Shown here one piece after another: positions 6,018 to 51,775 of a stretch of DNA of 64,000 nt. The stretch spans positions 62,001-126,000 of the forward strand of contig JAFRCD010000006.1 in NCBI GenBank assembly GCA_017404555.1, read 5' to 3'. The notes beneath the pieces were generated by a model. That model worked only from the letters and a program-made list of their open reading frames with translations. It made no database searches and was not told the origin of the DNA. The number at the start of each line of letters is the position of its first letter. Within the stretch, counting starts at the first letter, position 1. Position numbers and translations under genes: made by a program. This DNA is from Bacilli bacterium. Lineage in GTDB: Bacteria > Bacillota_I > Bacilli_A > RF39 > UBA660.

Positions 6018-7337
6018 ATGAAAAAAATAATGAATTTAAAAAACATAGGATTAATACTAACAATAGTATTAGTATCAATCCTAACTTTAAATACAAAGAA
6101 TGTAAAAGCTACAGGAACAGTAACTTGGAGTGGACCAAGTTCAATTACTATTAGAGAGACTATTAGTAATATGACAAATCCTATAGTGGCTAGTAGGGCG
6201 TATGGGCTTTTTGTTCAAGGAAATGATATAACGCCAGTTACAACAGCAACAATCAATTTTACAGCCAGTGATACTCCAACAAACTATCAAATAACGAAAT
6301 CTACAACAATGAACTTGACAAGTTTAGCATTCTCAAAACCAGGAGATTATGAATATTCTATCTATCCCGACTGGTTATTAGATAATGCAGGGCATTTCTT
6401 GGATAATTACTCTACTGGTAGTCATCACTATAATGTTACCTACAGATATAAGGTGATTGTCTCAGTACGAAATGTTGTTGATGCTAACAATACACCGACA
6501 GGGGACTTTACGGCAACAACAATACTAGAATCATGCGAGTATAATGAGCAAACGAACAACTATGAAAATTGTACGAAAATATCCCCAGTCAGCGGAGTTC
6601 TATATGCTGACTATGATTATGAAACTAATCCTGAAAGCTTTGCTCATATAGAAATATCAAAAACTGTTAAAGGTATTGGAGCTGATACTACTAAATACTT
6701 CCCCATAACACTTACTATATATAATGAAGGAGCAATCTTCGATGATTGGGAGTATCCGATAACAGGAATAGATAGTACTATAACTTATAATGGTCAATCA
6801 GTAACCCAACCTACAACAATTGGTAATGGAACTCCAGTTATAATATATATAAAGCATGGACAAACTGCGATTATAGGTCAGGCTACAAGTGGTGGCAGTA
6901 GTTTTGACCTTATACCAACCAAAGCAACTGTTGGTTATAGCGGAGGTGGTGGTGGTTCATATGCCAATTCACAACTAAAAGAATATCGGGTGCAAAAACT
7001 CGCTGGAGAGCAAATATTTTATGGTAGCTTTTTTACCGTAGCAGAAGATCCTAAGGATTATTCTCCTTCGATATCACCTGATAATGAGAACTTTTTTAAC
7101 GTTTCTTCTGTTTCAGATATAGCTGGTATTCCTTCAATAGAAATTGGTGGAGAACAAAAAAAAGTCTTACCTATTATGGAGGGAGGGACTTATCCAATTT
7201 ATTTTATTAACACCAAAGAAATGTCACCAGTGACAGGACTAATCTTTACAATACTTCCTTATGTGATATTAGTAGGTATTGGAGTAGGTGGAGTATTACT
7301 ATTTAGATATTCAAAAACTAAGAAATCAAAAAGTTAA
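6018..7337 (+). CDS. Pilin-like cell-wall surface protein with SPVTG sorting signal
   Basis: I chose ATG 6018 because TAGGAG (6005-6010) sits 7 bases upstream and the longer frame starts inside the promoter. The 439-residue protein has a signal peptide (about 1-32, ending VKATG). It then has beta-rich modules of the Gram-positive pilin isopeptide-linkage type (Y-E-Y-S-I near residue 115, and I-S-K-T-V-K-G in a second module). The C-terminus is a complete sorting signal: SPVTG at 403-407, a hydrophobic stretch, and a Lys-rich tail. Its second module and C-terminus closely resemble those of the protein at 55156-57207 (H-G-Q-T-A-I-I-G-Q versus H-G-Q-T-A-T-I-G-Q). It is probably anchored by the class-B-like sortase at 16002-16811. 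The role is likely adhesion or structure, which is inference. Confidence 0.7.
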   Translation: MKKIMNLKNIGLILTIVLVSILTLNTKNVKATGTVTWSGPSSITIRETISNMTNPIVASRAYGLFVQGNDITPVTTATINFTASDTPTNYQITKSTTMNLTSLAFSKPGDYEYSIYPDWLLDNAGHFLDNYSTGSHHYNVTYRYKVIVSVRNVVDANNTPTGDFTATTILESCEYNEQTNNYENCTKISPVSGVLYADYDYETNPESFAHIEISKTVKGIGADTTKYFPITLTIYNEGAIFDDWEYPITGIDSTITYNGQSVTQPTTIGNGTPVIIYIKHGQTAIIGQATSGGSSFDLIPTKATVGYSGGGGGSYANSQLKEYRVQKLAGEQIFYGSFFTVAEDPKDYSPSISPDNENFFNVSSVSDIAGIPSIEIGGEQKKVLPIMEGGTYPIYFINTKEMSPVTGLIFTILPYVILVGIGVGGVLLFRYSKTKKSKS

Positions 7338-7354
7338 GGCTTTTTGATTTTTTT
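7323..7354 (+). terminator. Intrinsic terminator
   Basis: 11-bp stem AAATCAAAAAG / CTTTTTGATTT (7323-7333 and 7340-7350) followed by T residues, overlapping the end of the surface protein gene. Confidence 0.8.
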
Positions 7355-7368
7355 GTTTTAAAAACTTT

Positions 7369-7395
7369 TTAGCACTTTAACTTGACAAGTGCTAA
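7369..7395 (+). promoter_or_regulatory. CIRCE-type HrcA operator
   Basis: TTAGCACTT - 9 bases - AAGTGCTAA, a perfect inverted repeat with CIRCE geometry (consensus TTAGCACTC-N9-GAGTGCTAA, one symmetric change). It covers the -35 of the hsp20 promoter, as expected for HrcA repression. A further half-site GAGTGCTA begins at 7399. Confidence 0.85.
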
Positions 7396-7410
7396 AAAGA
7401 GTGCTATAAC
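7382..7410 (+). promoter_or_regulatory. Promoter of hsp20
   Basis: TTGACA (7382-7387), 17-base spacer, TATAAC (7405-7410). The -35 overlaps the right side of the CIRCE operator. Confidence 0.8.
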
Positions 7411-7432
7411 ATAGATGAAAGGAAGGATGAAT

Positions 7433-7822
7433 ATGGATTTAATGCCAAGAAAATTCTATTTAGATGACATGTTTGATGACTTTTTATCTACTAAAAGTAC
7501 AGGAATGAAATGTGATATCTATGAAAAGGATGGATGCTATCATGTAGAGATGGATACACCAGGATTTAGTAAAGATGATTTAAGTATTTCAATGGATAAT
7601 GGTTATTTAACTATTACTGCTGAAAAATCTCATGAAGATAATGATGATAGTAAAAACTATATTCGCCGCGAAAGAAGCTACGGTAAATATGAAAGAAGCT
7701 TTTATCTTGGAGAAGTAGATGAAGAAAATATTGATGCTACTTTTAAAGATGGAGTATTAAAACTTTCAATTCCTAAAGCAGATGAAAACAAATCAAAAAG
7801 AGTTATCGAAATTAAGGACTAA
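7433..7822 (+). CDS. Small heat-shock protein, Hsp20/alpha-crystallin family
   Basis: ATP-independent cytosolic chaperone that holds unfolding proteins. I chose ATG 7433 (MDLMPRKFY, 129 residues) because GGAAGG (7421-7426) sits 6 bases upstream. The upstream in-frame ATG at 7415 is too close to the -10 to be translated. The alpha-crystallin domain runs from about residue 25 to 120. It includes the V-E-M-D-T-P-G-F stretch, the L-T-I-T-A-E-K strand and the diagnostic G-V-L-K-L-S-I-P-K (A-x-x-x-G-V-L-like) near the C-terminus. It is a single-gene unit under a CIRCE operator, so heat and misfolding stress through HrcA is the expected control. Confidence 0.92.
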   Translation: MDLMPRKFYLDDMFDDFLSTKSTGMKCDIYEKDGCYHVEMDTPGFSKDDLSISMDNGYLTITAEKSHEDNDDSKNYIRRERSYGKYERSFYLGEVDEENIDATFKDGVLKLSIPKADENKSKRVIEIKD

Positions 7823-10800: not shown

Positions 10801-11315
10801 GTGGTCAGCAATCAAAATCTACTAGAGAAGGAGCAGTTGTTAAATTTGCTTCTACTGGTAAAGAAACACCAAAGAAAGATTTAGCTGCAATAGCTCTTAC
10901 ATATCCAAATGCTTATGTAGGAACAATTTCTTTAGGCGCTAATCCAATGCAAGCTATTAACACTATGAAGGAAGCTGAAAACTATAATGGACCATCAATT
11001 ATTATTGCCTATGCTCCTTGTATAGCCCATGGTATTTTAAAAGGTATTCAAGATAGTATTAATACAGAAAAGAAAGCTACAGAATCTGGTTATTTTCCAT
11101 TATTTAGATATAATCCAGAGACTGATGAATTTAAAATTGATTCCAAAGCTGATTTTTCTAAGTATTATGAATTTATTGCTTCTGAAGACCGCTATCGCTC
11201 TTTGAAGAAATTAAATAAGAATTATCGAGAAATGTTAGAAGATAATAAGAATAATGCGGAAAAACGCTTTGATCATTTAGAAGATATTTTAAACAACAAA
11301 AAAGAAGAGAAATAA
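7887..11315 (+). CDS. nifJ: Pyruvate:ferredoxin (flavodoxin) oxidoreductase
   Basis: Oxidises pyruvate with CoA to acetyl-CoA and CO2, passing electrons to ferredoxin or flavodoxin. This is the central oxygen-sensitive step of anaerobic fermentation. At 1142 residues it is the full-length single-chain type. The order is an N-terminal pyruvate/thiamine domain (G-N-E-A-C-A-Y, Y-P-I-T-P-A-S-P), the gamma-like domain, and two ferredoxin cassettes at about 675-740 (C-S-x-x-C-S-T-C-G-L-C-S-L-V-C-P and C-T-G-C-G-L-C-A-G-I-C-P). The thiamine-diphosphate domain follows (C-S-G-C-G-E-T-P near 806 and G-G-D-G-W-A-Y-D-I-G near 935). AGAGGATGA precedes the ATG. It is transcribed alone. The small ferredoxin at 40302-40496 is a plausible electron acceptor. 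Confidence 0.97.
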   Translation: MKKIMDGNEACAYSAYNFTEVAGIYPITPASPMSEVTDKWAGEDKKNFFGMPVKIVEMQSEAGAIGMVHGSLLAGCLSSTYTSSQGLLLMIPNMYKIAGEGLPCVINVAARSLSTHALSIFGDHQDIYAVRSTGFAMMAMSSPQQCMDLTNVSYLSAIKGRVPFVNFFDGFRTSHELSKIDVIDSNEVKSLIDQKALKEFRDEAMNPDKPYTRGTAQNEDIYFQITEARNKYYDKLPDIVADYMKEINLIAGTKYAPFNYYGSPRATKLIVAMGSVCETIKEVVKHLNKKKNEYGLVEVHLYRPFSTKYFLKAIPKTVKKIAVLDRTKEAGSSGEPLYLDVVKTIKDIESKVLVVGGRYGLSSKNTTPAMIKGVFDFLDSKDVHSNFTVGIEDDVTNLSIKYDPSFVLPNNHTDFLIYGYGSDGMVSASKDILKITGNHSNAYVQGYFRYDSKKSGGITISNLRFAKDRITSPYYIEEAKMVVCTKDAYLGKLSMLENIKKDGIFLLNTDEDEITVLDKMSVKDKKILQDKNIKFYIVNASKIAFDNGLRGKISAIMEVLIFKLGKVIDFDFACKKIKDSINVRFSHKGNDIAKKNIEAIDEAVNALKRVKVPNVTFDEIVEEKKDMFDLIGAMEGDVLPVSSFITNAHGAHDAATSRFDKRKISNIVPKYCSENCSTCGLCSLVCPHAVIRPYLLDEKEVEEAPESLKGKLIDANIKDANLKFTIGISIDDCTGCGLCAGICPGLKDKKALKMTDKNKLKEEVEENEYLINEVSEKKDVLNRFTIKGSQLVEPKFEFSGACSGCGETPYIKLLTQLFGDNMIIANATGCSSIYGASTPSMPYSVPWANSLFEDNAEFGYGMKYADEAMKDRIKKVISENLSKVKKEEEKIYKDYLENINSDTADKLLEIVDKSKISELKKLKDFIKPKSVWMIGGDGWAYDIGFSGIDHVLSNKENVNILVLDTECYSNTGGQQSKSTREGAVVKFASTGKETPKKDLAAIALTYPNAYVGTISLGANPMQAINTMKEAENYNGPSIIIAYAPCIAHGILKGIQDSINTEKKATESGYFPLFRYNPETDEFKIDSKADFSKYYEFIASEDRYRSLKKLNKNYREMLEDNKNNAEKRFDHLEDILNNKKEEK

Positions 11316-11328
11316 ATCTCTTCTTTTT
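11298..11328. terminator. Bidirectional terminator between PFOR and the minus-strand small RNA
   Basis: Stem of at least 12 bp (A-run plus GAAGAGA / TCTCTTC plus T-run) with AATAAA loop. It has T-runs on both strands, so it can stop transcription from either side. Confidence 0.8.
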
Positions 11329-11435
11329 GTTTTATCTAGGAAGTTGCACCCCCTGAGGGCAACTTCCAAAAAGAATAAAAAGGGGTTGGCTAGTGTGATA
11401 CTAGCGACCGATTCGCCTAATAACCGAATCGGTAT
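11298..11435 (-). ncRNA. Putative small structured RNA, family unknown
   Basis: A 240-base gap between PFOR and the next gene holds no protein but strong secondary structure. On the minus strand a promoter (TTGACA-17-TAGTAT at 11469-11441) would start an RNA near 11434, and the bidirectional terminator at 11298-11328 would end it, giving about 135 nt. Reading 5' to 3' on the minus strand, there are three hairpins. The first is a 9-bp hairpin (ACCGATTCG / CGAATCGGT), the second a 6-bp hairpin (GCTAGT / ACTAGC), and the third a 9-bp hairpin (GGAAGTTGC / GCAACTTCC) whose loop holds AGGGGGT. That loop could pair with an upstream ACCCCT linker as a pseudoknot. I do not recognise it as 6S, SRP, RNase P or tmRNA. 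Confidence 0.5.
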
Positions 11436-11440
11436 GGTTT

Positions 11441-11469
11441 ATACTAATCGAAATGGTCCCTTTTGTCAA
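11441..11469 (-). promoter_or_regulatory. Minus-strand promoter of the putative small RNA
   Basis: On the minus strand: consensus TTGACA (11469-11464), 17-base spacer, TAGTAT (11446-11441). No gene is correctly placed for it other than the structured RNA. Confidence 0.6.
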
Positions 11470-19798: not shown

Positions 19799-20284
19799 AT
19801 GAATAAAGCGATGTTAGCTGTAGGAATTATCTTTTTAGCACTACTTGCCTTTGCAACTATTAATTTAATCCAAGATTTTTCTACGGGACAAGAACTTGAT
19901 TATTATTTATTAAAAGAGACTACTGATGCTGCAATGGTTGATGCCCTTGATTTTGACTTTTATGCTGAATCAGGATCAATTAGAATGGACAAAGAGAAGT
20001 TTGTTGAAAGTTTCTTAAGAAGATTTGCTAAATCAGCATCAGCTAAAGATTATGATATTTATTTCTACGCTCTTAATGAAACACCACCTAAAGCTAGTGT
20101 TAAAGTTGAAACCAAGACTATTGCCACAGCACAAAGTACACCTACTGGAAAAGATGAAAATAATGGTAAAATAGATATAACGACAACATATAACAGTATT
20201 TTAGAGACAAAGTATTTACAAGATACAATGTCTAAGTGGAAGATTGCAACTGGTGAACTAGATGCTAATGTAACTACTAGATAA
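19799..20284 (+). CDS. Small pseudopilin-like membrane protein
   Basis: A 161-residue protein with an N-terminal hydrophobic helix (about 3-23) followed by an acidic, mixed region (T-T-D-A-A-M-V-D-A-L-D near 40) and a soluble C-terminus. This plan, with the helix at the extreme N-terminus and a short pilus-like body, resembles TadE/TadF minor pilins, but no diagnostic motif is present. AGGAGGTGAG precedes the ATG. It lies between the cysteine-rich protein and CpaB, 23 bases before the latter. Confidence 0.4.
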   Translation: MNKAMLAVGIIFLALLAFATINLIQDFSTGQELDYYLLKETTDAAMVDALDFDFYAESGSIRMDKEKFVESFLRRFAKSASAKDYDIYFYALNETPPKASVKVETKTIATAQSTPTGKDENNGKIDITTTYNSILETKYLQDTMSKWKIATGELDANVTTR

Positions 20285-20307
20285 AGAAAAAGAAAGGGAT
20301 TGAGAAA

Positions 20308-21111
20308 ATGGCTAATTTAACTAATGGTATAAAAAAATTCTTAAGCAATAAAAATACAGTTACTATCTTGGGTGTGGTAATAGCAGTTTTAATCTTATAT
20401 TTTGGTTATAATTATCGGGTACGTCAAGCTACTAATCCGGTTGATGTACCCTATGCTAAAGTTACCATTGAACCCGGAACAAAGATAACTGAGGATATGG
20501 TAGGAACAATGAAAGTTCCACCTGCTATGCTTACTGATGGGGTTATAAGAGAAGTAGCAGCCGTTGTTGGTAAATATCCTAATGTGGATAGTATTATCCC
20601 TGAAGGAAGTTTATTCTATTCAAGAAGTGTTGTTGAAAAGGAACAACTTCCTGATAACATAATACTTGACTATCCTAAAGGATATACTTTATATAACTTG
20701 GCGGTTGACTCTAGAAGTACATATGGTAACTCTATATATCCAGGTAATTATATTGATATTTATTTAAGAATTACAAAGAAAGTAGCTGAGAACAGTACTA
20801 ATAAAGATGATAATAAGCTTATGTATGCTAAGTTTATTGAGAATGTAAAAGTACTTGCAGTTAGAGATTCATCTGGTAAAAATGTTTTTGCTAATACTGA
20901 TGAAGAAGTAACACCAGCAATGATTATCTTTGCTTTACCAGAAGATGATTACATACTTCTTAAAAAAGCAGAGGAACTAGCTACTTATAATAGTGAGATA
21001 ATTCCTGTTCCAACAGCTGAATCTTTAGAAGATGATCCGGCTGATGTTAAGGTTAGTTCAAAAGCTTTAAAAGATTATATAAATGAAATAACTGTTTGGG
21101 ACGGAAAATAA
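20308..21111 (+). CDS. CpaB/RcpC-like Flp pilus assembly protein (SAF domain)
   Basis: Tad pili use CpaB/RcpC outside the membrane for pilus assembly or stability. The 267-residue protein has one membrane segment (about 18-36). An SAF domain follows directly (V-P-Y-A-K-V-T-I-E-P-G-T-K-I-T-E-D-M-V, about 48-70; then S-I-I-P-E-G-S-L-F-Y near 100). The RcpC-type region has Y-T-L-Y-N-L-A-V-D near 130 and Y-P-G-N-Y-I-D-I-Y-L near 150. Neighbours on both sides are Tad-type genes. Secretin partners are not expected in a single-membrane organism. Confidence 0.8.
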   Translation: MANLTNGIKKFLSNKNTVTILGVVIAVLILYFGYNYRVRQATNPVDVPYAKVTIEPGTKITEDMVGTMKVPPAMLTDGVIREVAAVVGKYPNVDSIIPEGSLFYSRSVVEKEQLPDNIILDYPKGYTLYNLAVDSRSTYGNSIYPGNYIDIYLRITKKVAENSTNKDDNKLMYAKFIENVKVLAVRDSSGKNVFANTDEEVTPAMIIFALPEDDYILLKKAEELATYNSEIIPVPTAESLEDDPADVKVSSKALKDYINEITVWDGK

Positions 21112-21141
21112 AAGAAAAAAAGAATAGAAAGTTGTGGTTTG

Positions 21142-22383
21142 ATGAACGAGAATATATTTGATCAATTAGATTTTGGACCATTGAGAAGTCTTTTAGAAAA
21201 TGATGATATCACTGATATCTCATTTTGTAATGGAGGTCAAATCTGGATTCGTTCGCTTACCCAAGGGTCAATACGAGTAGAAGTTGAAGGATGCACACCA
21301 GATTTTATGGAAAAACTGGCTTTTCAGTGTTCAAATGTTATGGGAACAACCTTTAATAATGCCAAACCATTTTTGGATGCTGAATCAGCTGAACTTCGTC
21401 TTAACTTTGTTCATCAGTCCATTGCTACTAACGGAATTGCTTGTGTTATTCGTAAAACACCAGCTAAAATCCGATTAGAAAAAGAAAAATTATTAAAAGA
21501 AGATTATTTTACAAATGATATTCATGATATTCTAATTAAGTGTGTTGAGGGTCATTGTAATATATTGGTTTCTGGAGAAACTGGTTCTGGTAAAACAGAG
21601 TTTGTAAAATATTTGGCTTCGCATACTAAAACCGATGAAAAAATAATAACCATTGAGGATACATTGGAATTGCATTTGGATAAAATATTCCCTCAAAGGG
21701 ATATCGTGGCCATGAAAACAAATAATGTGGCCTCATATACTGATGTGTTAGTTACCTGTATGCGACAGAACCCAAAATGGATATTGCTTTCTGAAGTGCG
21801 TAGTGCTGAAGCGGTAACAGCAGTTCGAAATTCAATTTCATCTGGACATAACATTTTATCAACAATTCATGCTGATAAAGCCAGTGCTATACCATACCGT
21901 CTATATTCATTAATGGAGACAGATTTAGATGTGCATCAGTTTTTAACTACGATTTATCGTTATGTACAATTAGGTGTTCACATTAAGGCATATTATTCAA
22001 AAGAAAAGGGAAAGTTCCATCGAGAAGTGGATGAGGTTGTAGAATTTTATGTTGATGAGAACAACGAACCACAGACTCATATTATTTATCAAAAAGGGTT
22101 TGGTAAGGAACCGGTTTTAAACATGCCTAGTCCACATTTAATAGAGTACTTAGAAAATCAAAATATTCATTTAGATAGTAATATGAAAGTTACTAATGCT
22201 GATCAGCCTTTTGGGGATGACGAAAAGAAATCAACTGCACAAGTTGAAGCAGTAGTTCCACAGAACGAAGTAACTGTACCTCAAAATGAGGTACCAGCAT
22301 CAAAGGAGGAAAAAGAGGCACCTAGCGTTGTTCAACCAGTGAGTCAGGTAAGCAGTATTCCTCAAAGTACAGTAACATCATAA
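21142..22383 (+). CDS. CpaF/TadA-type secretion ATPase (VirB11/GspE superfamily)
   Basis: Hexameric cytosolic ATPase powering pilus or secretion assembly. The 413-residue protein has an N-terminal domain (D-D-I-T-D-I-S-F-C-N-G-G), Walker A G-E-T-G-S-G-K-T at 145-152, an Asp box (T-I-E-D-T-L-E-L) and a Walker-B-like W-I-L-L-S-E-V-R. It also has the His box S-S-G-H-N-I-L-S-T-I-H-A, all in the CpaF order. The C-terminal 60 residues are a Gln/Val/Pro-rich tail. ATG 21142 is preferred to the TTG immediately before it; the ribosome-binding site is weak. In type IV systems VirB11 belongs to the same superfamily, so this one ATPase might also serve the VirB genes downstream. Confidence 0.88.
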   Translation: MNENIFDQLDFGPLRSLLENDDITDISFCNGGQIWIRSLTQGSIRVEVEGCTPDFMEKLAFQCSNVMGTTFNNAKPFLDAESAELRLNFVHQSIATNGIACVIRKTPAKIRLEKEKLLKEDYFTNDIHDILIKCVEGHCNILVSGETGSGKTEFVKYLASHTKTDEKIITIEDTLELHLDKIFPQRDIVAMKTNNVASYTDVLVTCMRQNPKWILLSEVRSAEAVTAVRNSISSGHNILSTIHADKASAIPYRLYSLMETDLDVHQFLTTIYRYVQLGVHIKAYYSKEKGKFHREVDEVVEFYVDENNEPQTHIIYQKGFGKEPVLNMPSPHLIEYLENQNIHLDSNMKVTNADQPFGDDEKKSTAQVEAVVPQNEVTVPQNEVPASKEEKEAPSVVQPVSQVSSIPQSTVTS

Positions 22384-22403
22384 TAAAGAAAGGGGAGATA
22401 AAT

Positions 22404-23297
22404 ATGGAATTGTTTTTACTACTAGCAGTAGCTATTTTAGTGCTGTTATATAGAAATTATCGTGGTCAGAACATTTCTAAATTCTTTAGTGATAATTTTA
22501 AAACCATATACGATAAATTTGCTCCATATTCATATAAAGTAGTACGTGAAAAGACTAAAGAATTAGGGCAAGAGTATACGATTAAAGATTATGCTATGCA
22601 AATAGCTTTCTTTGGATTGTTTGCTGCTGTTGTAAGCTACTTATACTTTTATAACATATTAATATCTGTTTTCTATGTTTTTGCAGCTATAATGGTTGTT
22701 CCATATTTATCATATTTAAGATGTAAAAGAGTATATAGTGAGTTCTTGTTTGAACAAATTCAAGTGTATACTTCTAATACTATAATGGAGTTTGCAACTA
22801 CCCAGTCTTTTGTAAAAGCAATTGAAGGAGTTAAGCAATCAGGTATTTTAGATGATCCTGTAGCTCGTGATGTTGATCATATGATAGAACTTGCTTATCG
22901 TGATGGTAGTATTGATAATGCTCTTAAGTATTTTAGTGATCTATATCCATATTATATTGTTAAGAATATGCATCAATTGTTTTTACAAATTACTAAAGAA
23001 GGAGCTCAAAACTCGGCTGATTCATTAGATAATATGCAACTTGATATCGATATGCTTGTAGAGTCAGTTTATCGAGATCGAATTGATAGAAAAAGTTTCC
23101 ATAGATCATTTTTACAATTTGGACTTATGCTTTATGTAATGGCTATGCTTGTCCAATATTTAGTTGGAAGGGAAAGTTATATAAAAATGTTAGATTCATG
23201 GTATGTACAATTATTGTTGCATGCTATATTGATTATAAATAGTTATTTTCTTCTTAAGGGAGAAAAATATTATAACGAGAATGTAGGTGCAGAATAG
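22404..23297 (+). CDS. TadB-like inner-membrane platform protein
   Basis: Tad/type II F-domain platform protein on which the CpaF ATPase acts. The 297-residue protein has membrane segments near 2-16, 70-90, 92-108 and, at the C-terminus, 235-255 and 262-280. A cytosolic helical block at about 115-225 contains E-F-A-T-T-Q-S-F-V-K-A-I-E-G and a later Q-I-T-K-E-G-A-Q. AGGGGAGA precedes the ATG. The stop codon is immediately followed by the ATG of the TadC-like gene, which indicates translational coupling. Confidence 0.75.
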   Translation: MELFLLLAVAILVLLYRNYRGQNISKFFSDNFKTIYDKFAPYSYKVVREKTKELGQEYTIKDYAMQIAFFGLFAAVVSYLYFYNILISVFYVFAAIMVVPYLSYLRCKRVYSEFLFEQIQVYTSNTIMEFATTQSFVKAIEGVKQSGILDDPVARDVDHMIELAYRDGSIDNALKYFSDLYPYYIVKNMHQLFLQITKEGAQNSADSLDNMQLDIDMLVESVYRDRIDRKSFHRSFLQFGLMLYVMAMLVQYLVGRESYIKMLDSWYVQLLLHAILIINSYFLLKGEKYYNENVGAE

Positions 23298-24083
23298 ATG
23301 GAAATACTAGCAATTGGTGTTATAATTATATTTATTCTTTTCTACAATAAAACTGTTGATAAAAACAAGTTTATTGCTGATAATGAAAAGTATTTTGAAA
23401 TCTTACGAGAAGATGATTATAACTTCTTATTATACGCTAAATATGGTGATGATGTTGATGTTGATGTTTTGTTTAGGAAAAGATTAATGTTAGGTTTGAT
23501 AGTAGGATTAATCTTTATGTCTCTTTCATTAACTGGAGGATTTTCTGCTTTGAATTTCATTGTTGGAATTGTCGTAGGGGTAGTAGCATTCAAATATCCG
23601 TATTTTGGACTTAAAAAATACTATAAAGCACATTTACATGATATTGATATAATGCTTCCATATTTCTTAAAGAGTTTGGAGGTTTTAGTACAGCATTATA
23701 CAGTACCAGTAGCCCTTGGTAAATCTATTGATGATGCACCTGAAATATTTAGACCAGGATTAAGAGTTTTAGTTGATCGTATTAATGCTGGTGATTCTAG
23801 TATTGATCCTTATATGGAGTTTTCCAATACTTATCCAGTTAGAGATTCAATGAGAATGATGAGGTTACTTTATAGATTAGGACTTGGTTCTCAAGAAAAG
23901 AAGCAGGAACGTCTGATGATGTTTTCTAGAACAGTATCATCTTTACAGAATAAAGCTCGTGAAACTAAGTATAAAGAACGTTTGGGTCATATGGAAAGCC
24001 AAACTATGATAATGTTAGTTGTTACTGGTTTAGGGGTTATGTTAATTTTATTAATTGCAATGTTTATGATGTTTACTGGATAA
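23298..24083 (+). CDS. TadC-like inner-membrane platform protein
   Basis: Second F-domain platform protein of the Tad pair. The 261-residue protein has membrane segments at about 2-15, 60-78, 80-97 and 236-260. The helical cytosolic block between them (I-D-I-M-L-P-Y-F-L-K-S-L-E-V-L, then G-D-S-S-I-D-P-Y-M-E-F) carries the usual TadC spacing. No Shine-Dalgarno spacing is available because the ATG directly follows the preceding stop, so it must be coupled to the TadB-like gene. It is the last gene before a small gap with a new promoter. Confidence 0.75.
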   Translation: MEILAIGVIIIFILFYNKTVDKNKFIADNEKYFEILREDDYNFLLYAKYGDDVDVDVLFRKRLMLGLIVGLIFMSLSLTGGFSALNFIVGIVVGVVAFKYPYFGLKKYYKAHLHDIDIMLPYFLKSLEVLVQHYTVPVALGKSIDDAPEIFRPGLRVLVDRINAGDSSIDPYMEFSNTYPVRDSMRMMRLLYRLGLGSQEKKQERLMMFSRTVSSLQNKARETKYKERLGHMESQTMIMLVVTGLGVMLILLIAMFMMFTG

Positions 24084-24126
24084 AGTGTAAAGTAGAATAA
24101 AAAAACTAGTAAAAATGCGTTTGCTT

Positions 24127-24135
24127 TGGTATACT
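24127..24135 (+). promoter_or_regulatory. Extended -10 promoter upstream of the pilin-like gene
   Basis: TGgTATACT at 24127-24135. It lies in an 88-base gap that also holds two copies of the palindrome ACTAGT, at about 24106 and 24132. Confidence 0.45.
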
Positions 24136-24171
24136 AGTATTATGATATGATTGGAAGGAGATGTTAAATAT

Positions 24172-24351
24172 ATGAAAGCAGCTACAGGAGAATTAAATCT
24201 AACAATTATTACAGTTTTGGCTATTTCGGCAGTTATTGCCTTTTTCTGGTTCTTATGGCCAACTATAAAAGATACTGTTAGTGATAATGTGAATAATATT
24301 ACCGATGGTGGAAGCGATCCTACTGGTACTAGTTTTATTGTGGTAAAATAG
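24172..24351 (+). CDS. Small Flp-pilin-like membrane protein
   Basis: A 59-residue protein: a short head MKAATGELN, one hydrophobic helix (about 10-31) and a short hydrophilic tail ending in S-F-I-V-V-K. Size and position (directly after TadB/TadC-like genes) fit a Flp major pilin. There is a Gly-Glu just before the helix where a prepilin peptidase could cut, but the usual Glu at +5 is missing. I chose ATG 24172, with GGAAGGAG at 24153-24160; a four-codon frame starts at 24161 between them. It sits 11 bases ahead of the next pilin-like gene. Confidence 0.55.
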   Translation: MKAATGELNLTIITVLAISAVIAFFWFLWPTIKDTVSDNVNNITDGGSDPTGTSFIVVK

Positions 24352-24362
24352 AGGTGTAGTAT

Positions 24363-24806
24363 ATGCGAGATGCAATTGGCGGAATAGTTAATATTCAGAT
24401 TATTCTAGTTTTTATAGTGTTGGTAAGTGGTTATTTAGCTTTTTCTGTTAATTATACAAAAGCATTTCGGGCTAAGAATAAAATAATTAATGCTATAGAA
24501 CAATATGAGGGTATGACTGATAATGCTTCTTTAGCAGAAGATGGTGATACAGCTACCTATCTTAAGCAAATTGGTTATAGTGGTCGAAGTAATTGTCCGA
24601 CAGGATATAATGCTGACCCTTATCAATTAGGTTTTTGTTGGCGTGAGACACAAGTTGATACAACTAATACTGCCTTGGATAAACGGTATTTTAGTGTTAT
24701 GACATTTATCAATATTGATATACCAATAATAGAAAAAATATTGGATAGAATTGAACCGTTCAAAATAAAAGGTGACACTAAATTGATAATTACACATAAA
24801 AAATAA
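24363..24806 (+). CDS. TadE-like minor pilin or pseudopilin
   Basis: A 147-residue protein with head MRDAIGGIVN, an N-terminal hydrophobic helix (about 9-30), then a soluble domain with two cysteines (S-N-C-P and G-F-C-W). This is the layout of TadE-type pseudopilins, though no diagnostic motif is present. GAGGTG precedes the ATG. A hairpin terminator follows immediately. I cannot exclude an unrelated membrane protein. Confidence 0.45.
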   Translation: MRDAIGGIVNIQIILVFIVLVSGYLAFSVNYTKAFRAKNKIINAIEQYEGMTDNASLAEDGDTATYLKQIGYSGRSNCPTGYNADPYQLGFCWRETQVDTTNTALDKRYFSVMTFINIDIPIIEKILDRIEPFKIKGDTKLIITHKK

Positions 24807-51547: not shown

Positions 51548-51553
51548 TATCTA

Positions 51554-51775
51554 GAAATACGATGAACTTGAGGAGTAAGTATTTAATTCTTAAAGAGAGA
51601 CTATGGTTGGTGAGAATAGTTAGATGATGATACTGAAGGTAGCAAGGGAGTAGGTTTTCTGAAAAGAGTAAGTTAATTCCGGAGATGTTTCCGTTATCAA
51701 ATAAGAGGTATTTATTAATATAAAATAAGGTGGTACCACGAGAACTTCGTCCTTAAGCGTAGTTCTTTTTTTATT
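51554..51775 (+). promoter_or_regulatory. T-box riboswitch, probably valine-responsive
   Basis: The leader senses uncharged tRNA and allows read-through. Stem I has the AGTA-type loop-E strand and the GGTTGGTGAGAA distal motif (51605-51616). The antiterminator T-box AAGGTGGTACCACGAG lies at 51728-51743, and a competing terminator (AGAACT / AGTTCT at 51741-51746 and 51761-51766, then T-run) follows. Pairing CTTG with CAAG and AGTAT with ATACT leaves GAAG-GTA-G in the specifier loop. GTA (51639-51641) is therefore the likely valine codon, agreeing with the downstream valS. Confidence 0.9.

Follow-up and report, generated by a model that had tools for sequence, protein, structure and literature searches.

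A family-wide small-RNA gene of uncultured gut Bacilli with a conserved linker complementary to pilB start regions

A gene for a structured RNA on the minus strand

Does the intergenic region between the PFOR gene and the thioredoxin-like gene of this 64,000-nt stretch of DNA (hereafter the window) encode an RNA in its own right, and what could such an RNA act on? The sequence-only reading had described three hairpins, a minus-strand promoter and a bidirectional terminator at this locus, and had proposed a structured RNA gene. We found the promoter and the terminator in place:

11441..11469, minus strand: sigma-A-type promoter TTGACA-17-TAGTAT of the small RNA (promoter scan, and conservation in 157 distinct relatives)
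11300..11434, minus strand: small-RNA gene (covariance-model match; ends inferred from sequence)
11299..11328, either strand: bidirectional terminator, common to the convergent PFOR gene (terminator scan)

The promoter scored 10/12 matches in the scan, the best of seven promoter-like sites nearby, and is kept in relatives, where the -35 box TTGACA is present in 142 of the 157 distinct records and the 17-nt spacer in 150. Around the element, two terminator-like sites were found against 0.3 expected. The covariance-model match (G000:C2:73332-73434) corresponds to window positions 11332-11434. Judging from the sequence, the RNA would start at about 11434, 7 nt past the -10 box, and would be ~103 nt long if it ended at the foot of hairpin 3, or ~135 nt long if it ran on to the terminator; across the family, the size of the gene is roughly 105-135 nt. 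The window's own hairpin 3 has no U-tract after it, and termination here is likely at 11299-11328.

Folding alone did not decide the strand, because both strands fold better than their shuffles (by 4.4 sd, z -4.4, on the minus strand, on which the three hairpins are present; z -5.1 on the plus strand). We assigned the minus strand because the promoter, the U-tails and the conservation in relatives favour it, and the order there is promoter, hairpin 1, hairpin 2, single-stranded linker and terminator hairpin. As had been stated before, the element contains no independent gene frame; the one listed frame that overlaps it belongs to the downstream gene, as an upstream extension that starts with TTG at 11463.

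Distribution and genomic context

The covariance model matched 340/386 genomes and 144/150 genera of the window's own family, in these 144 genera as a rule in single copy, and of 37 family genomes searched with blastn, most gave a match. Among 247 genomes of the class searched with the same model, matches outside the family were at chance level. Some matchless family genomes have a congener with a match (G014/G180, G023/G184), which suggests assembly gaps; the pilB site described below is kept in G014 and G016, both of which have no RNA match. At L159 and G346:C1:117053-117307, the RNA is present in two tandem copies ~155 nt apart.

In the 71 contexts that we examined, the flanking genes formed 56 clusters. 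The intergenic gaps are short, and a recG-like gene upstream and a PFOR-like gene downstream (both named from sequence) recur, as could be expected if the element belonged to the leader or 3'-UTR of an adjacent gene, or were a riboswitch, instead of being an independent RNA. We regard this as very improbable, considering that the element has its own promoter and terminator and that its neighbours belong to many different families and mostly lie on the opposite strand (upstream 60/67, downstream 57/70). Since the neighbours vary and are mostly encoded on the other strand, we treat the element as an independent gene; a free-standing gene with its own promoter and terminator is also what a trans-acting antisense small RNA would have.

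Structure and conservation

Four parts of the RNA were delineated within the window:

11407..11433, minus strand: hairpin 1, ACCGAUUCG...CGAAUCGGU (covariation)
11389..11405, minus strand: hairpin 2, GCUAGUAUCACACUAGC (alignment of relatives)
11368..11388, minus strand: linker CAACCCCUUUUUAUUCUUUUU, single-stranded, proposed seed (conservation and complementarity to pilB starts)
11339..11367, minus strand: hairpin 3, loop region UCAGGGGG (terminator hairpin in most relatives)

Compensatory changes, which had been named as the check on the proposed structure, were found in the stems of relatives and, together with the distribution, bear out a structured RNA gene. Hairpin 1 has both-sided changes in 5/7 pairs, with about 97-98% of cells paired. 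In hairpin 3, no fewer than 8 pairs form in 157/157 records, the 88 different stem sequences all pair, and a U-tract follows in 127/157. The stem of hairpin 2 is nearly constant, and its loop differs in divergent members. The linker, with a single-stranded core of 20 nt (CAACCCCUUUUUAUUCUUUU), varies least: (C)(A)ACCCCUUUUUAUUCUUU is hardly altered even in the weakest members, one extra U in the G036 linker being an observed change, and it stays nearly invariant while hairpin 1, the hairpin 2 loop and hairpin 3 vary. Because some of the aligned relatives were retrieved by searching for a portion of the linker itself, the unbiased evidence for this conservation is that of the blastn and model sets. 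The linker is likely the functional part of the RNA.

The earlier suggestion that the loop AGGGGGT pairs with the ACCCCT of the linker holds as regards complementarity. An obligatory loop-linker pseudoknot was rejected, given that the loop G-run (GGGG) is found in 125/157 records (~80%) and the linker is intact where the G-run is missing; such pairing would be optional at most.

Rfam covariance models gave nothing at gathering threshold for the element (SRP RNA, RNase P RNA, tmRNA and others), with weak matches far below the cut-offs, in agreement with the earlier failure to recognise a known RNA. For 6S RNA (RF00013) there was no match in the window; a 6S-like match lies elsewhere in the genome (G000:C1:123787-123971; 44.1 bits, just under the cut-off of 46.4), and a 6S identity of the element was rejected, most family genomes carrying 6S at another locus.

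Complementarity of the linker to pilB start regions

Beyond the sequence-only reading, we find that the linker is the conserved part of the RNA and that it is complementary to the starts of pilB, a gene for a GspE/PilB/ComGA-type assembly ATPase, the motor of a type IV (competence-like) pilus, elsewhere in the genome. Exact 11-mers AAAAAGGGGTT, found blind, sit at pilB starts in G006, G017 and G031, with no genome-wide enrichment of this 11-mer versus its reversed control. A search for AAAAGGGG before ATG led in two genomes to one and the same gene, for a T2SSE ATPase. We predicted a pilB signal for unselected genomes and recorded the prediction beforehand. In the 29 unselected genomes of the sample, pilB starts had a mean z of -3.07 against the linker (25/29 with z < -2; p 6e-15), compared with a background of 510 start regions of which 2.2% fall below z -2; these values come from duplex energies computed without accessibility, from start codons picked automatically by a script, and from pilB orthologues of related genomes that are not fully independent.

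With the reversed linker the mean z at pilB was -0.18, and with a linker whose C-run had been moved it was -0.08. Both controls also fall slightly below background (p 8e-4 and 8e-7), so part of the pilB signal is leader composition. There was no complementarity at PFOR start regions (mean z +0.85, n 31), at rsmH start regions (+0.47, n 20) or at the divergent pseudopilin start that lies in the same intergenic region ~95 nt away (-0.13). The linker-pilB duplexes amount to -11 to -24 kcal/mol and cover the Shine-Dalgarno sequence. The paired sites follow the pattern AAGAAUA..AAAAGGGGUUG, include that sequence and in most cases stop 0-11 nt short of the start codon; the duplex itself mostly stops 0-8 nt short of it.

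In the genome of the window, pilB (G000:C1:103777-105180) adjoins two pseudopilin genes. Its NCBIfam scores (GspE 467 bits, PilB 441, ComGA 270) are all below cut-offs, as are those of the ComGD/ComGE-like pseudopilins next to it, and "competence-like" is therefore used here for resemblance only.

A conserved single-stranded seed that is complementary to an unlinked mRNA start is characteristic of antisense small RNAs, and small RNAs that mask the Shine-Dalgarno sequence generally repress translation. We think it probable that the element is a trans-acting antisense small RNA whose linker pairs with the pilB leader and blocks translation, a repression that we propose because the conserved seed masks the Shine-Dalgarno sequence. 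Hairpins 1 and 2 and the terminator hairpin would present CAACCCCUUUUUAUUCUUUU as a single strand, the linker would base-pair with the leader of the pilB mRNA, and the duplex over the Shine-Dalgarno sequence would keep ribosomes from binding, with repression of the pilus motor as the predicted outcome. Expression of the RNA, its direct pairing with pilB mRNA inside cells and the direction of the effect are inferred from sequence.

Complementary RNA stretches are inherently the same DNA sequence, and the pairing described here could also reflect a double-stranded DNA operator, with a protein binding the sequence shared by the RNA gene, the pilB site and the phages discussed below. Changes at the pilB site do not favour G-U wobble (13 vs 32, p 0.94), as an operator would allow; linker-target covariation is impossible because the linker is invariant. 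Still, we hold an operator to be unlikely: the orientation is fixed, with the pyrimidine strand sense in the RNA gene and the purine strand sense at pilB, the pilB site is placed on the Shine-Dalgarno sequence, AAGAATA and the G-run are variably spaced among pilB sites, unlike the parts of a rigid operator, and the linker is located between conserved RNA hairpins.

If pilB is the target of an antisense RNA, regulation of pili, and perhaps of DNA uptake, becomes testable in a surrogate host without culturing these bacteria.

Copies of the linker in phages

In IMG/VR, 30 stretches contain the linker as an exact 18-mer, versus 8 for the reversed pattern; a hairpin is present on both sides in 13/30 versus 1/8. 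Several phage copies are mini-RNAs of ~70 nt, in which TATAAT is followed by a 5' hairpin unrelated in sequence, then by ACCCCUUUUUAUUCUU and a terminator, and are located just upstream of terminase or portal genes; one lies in a contig binned with the family genome G025, ahead of a gene that resembles a terminase gene in sequence. Other copies are found beside phage tRNA genes, and one near a ROOL RNA. A scan of phages for the pattern with a promoter in front returned mostly chance matches and a few real ones, and the cultured-phage and plasmid collections gave no match.

As for individual contigs, the linker module of L311 (6781-6798) lies ~370 nt upstream of a ROOL RNA (7168-7759) in a phage contig, and the similar contigs L255, L258, L291, L292 and L303 have the same module and hairpin. 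In L256, L257 and L031 (G004:C1:75205), hairpin 2 and the linker are identical to those of the host RNA and lie directly 3' of a phage-like tRNA end.

The use of the same linker with unrelated hairpins in phage RNAs, and its near-absolute conservation over 144 genera, would also suit a protein-binding site, that is, a chaperone, sponge or housekeeping RNA in which the complementarity to pilB is incidental. We give this reading slightly less credence than the DNA operator, considering that the pilB complementarity is specific, was predicted, and is absent for reversed or rearranged linkers and for control genes.

With the antisense small RNA as the preferred reading, the phage mini-RNAs suggest mimicry of the host RNA. 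It is conceivable, although we would stop short of calling it probable, that the family-wide RNA silences a competence-like pilus motor and that phage mini-RNAs of ~70 nt, with nothing but the 16-18-nt seed in common with it, silence that motor too during infection or lysogeny. If true, phage silencing would act against DNA uptake or pilus-dependent competitors, and phages would have taken over no more of a host regulatory RNA than its seed.

Comparison with described small RNAs

RsaE/RoxS-type C-rich small RNAs of Firmicutes target Shine-Dalgarno regions by a single-stranded C-rich stretch, and RocR acts at the ribosome-binding sites of competence genes. Our RNA is similar to RsaE/RoxS in its C-rich single-stranded stretch and Shine-Dalgarno target, but sequence, structure and targets differ, and the conserved seed of 18-20 nt contrasts with the short UCCC motif, with which RsaE occurs together (PMC9217828). 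Its likeness to RocR/RocRp of Legionella is that of a small RNA linked to natural transformation with variants on mobile elements, RocRp being a RocR variant on such elements that inhibits transformation (PMC11472951). Here, in contrast, the host is unrelated, the target is a pilus ATPase, no known family is matched in Rfam, phages instead of conjugative elements carry the copies, and an effect on transformation would be expected by analogy.

The pneumococcal csRNAs of Streptococcus pneumoniae are likewise Gram-positive small RNAs that repress a competence gene and are altered or carried by phages: they target comC, and prophage integration in the host gene alters csRNA3L (PMC9764711), whereas the phage RNAs described here are separate genes adjoining the packaging module. 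Interference of mobile elements with transformation via small RNAs is thus known (PMC11472951, PMC9764711). Phage action from a late-leader position also has a precedent, because StxS of Shiga-toxin phages, a small RNA from the late-promoter leader that shuts off a gene via the ribosome-binding site, sits there (PMC7873438). StxS is a precedent for the phage copies only; its sequence is unrelated, and the late promoter is a feature of StxS, the phage copies here being known by position.

Our literature search turned up neither a small RNA known from this lineage nor one acting on pilB, and homology to RocR or csRNAs, examined via the Rfam family search alone, gave no family at threshold. The element would represent an RNA family not described before, spread across a large lineage of uncultured gut bacteria, for which a concrete target can be predicted.

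Other candidate targets

Because Tad genes are present in the window, we examined pilus genes as further targets, among them one start region in the window:

21107..21147, plus strand: start region of a cpaF/TadA-like pilus ATPase gene, candidate for a secondary target (z about -4 for the genome of the window)

The starts of cpaF and tadB were more complementary to the linker than the 510 background starts (p 2e-5 and 3e-6), the cpaF test being partly post hoc, since cpaF was chosen after inspecting this genome. These Tad-type pilus genes may be secondary targets. The TadE-like gene of the cluster (window 24363) was rejected (p 0.11).

A 19-20-nt complement of the linker lies in the rsmH coding region in four of the genomes inspected, G004, G005, G031 and G027, where it encodes LKRIK(R/K)G or similar; rsmH was rejected as a target, the complement tracking this protein motif and not being conserved across the family. 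At L043 (G000:C4:86262), a near-copy of the linker, CACCTTTTTATTCTTTTT, lies upstream of a gene resembling tmcAL by sequence.

The Tad/Flp-type pilus cluster of the window (19799-24803) encodes RcpC/CpaB, a CpaF-like ATPase, TadB/TadC-like proteins and DUF5411. The window also contains a T-box leader (RF00230) at 51553-51757, with 122.8 bits.
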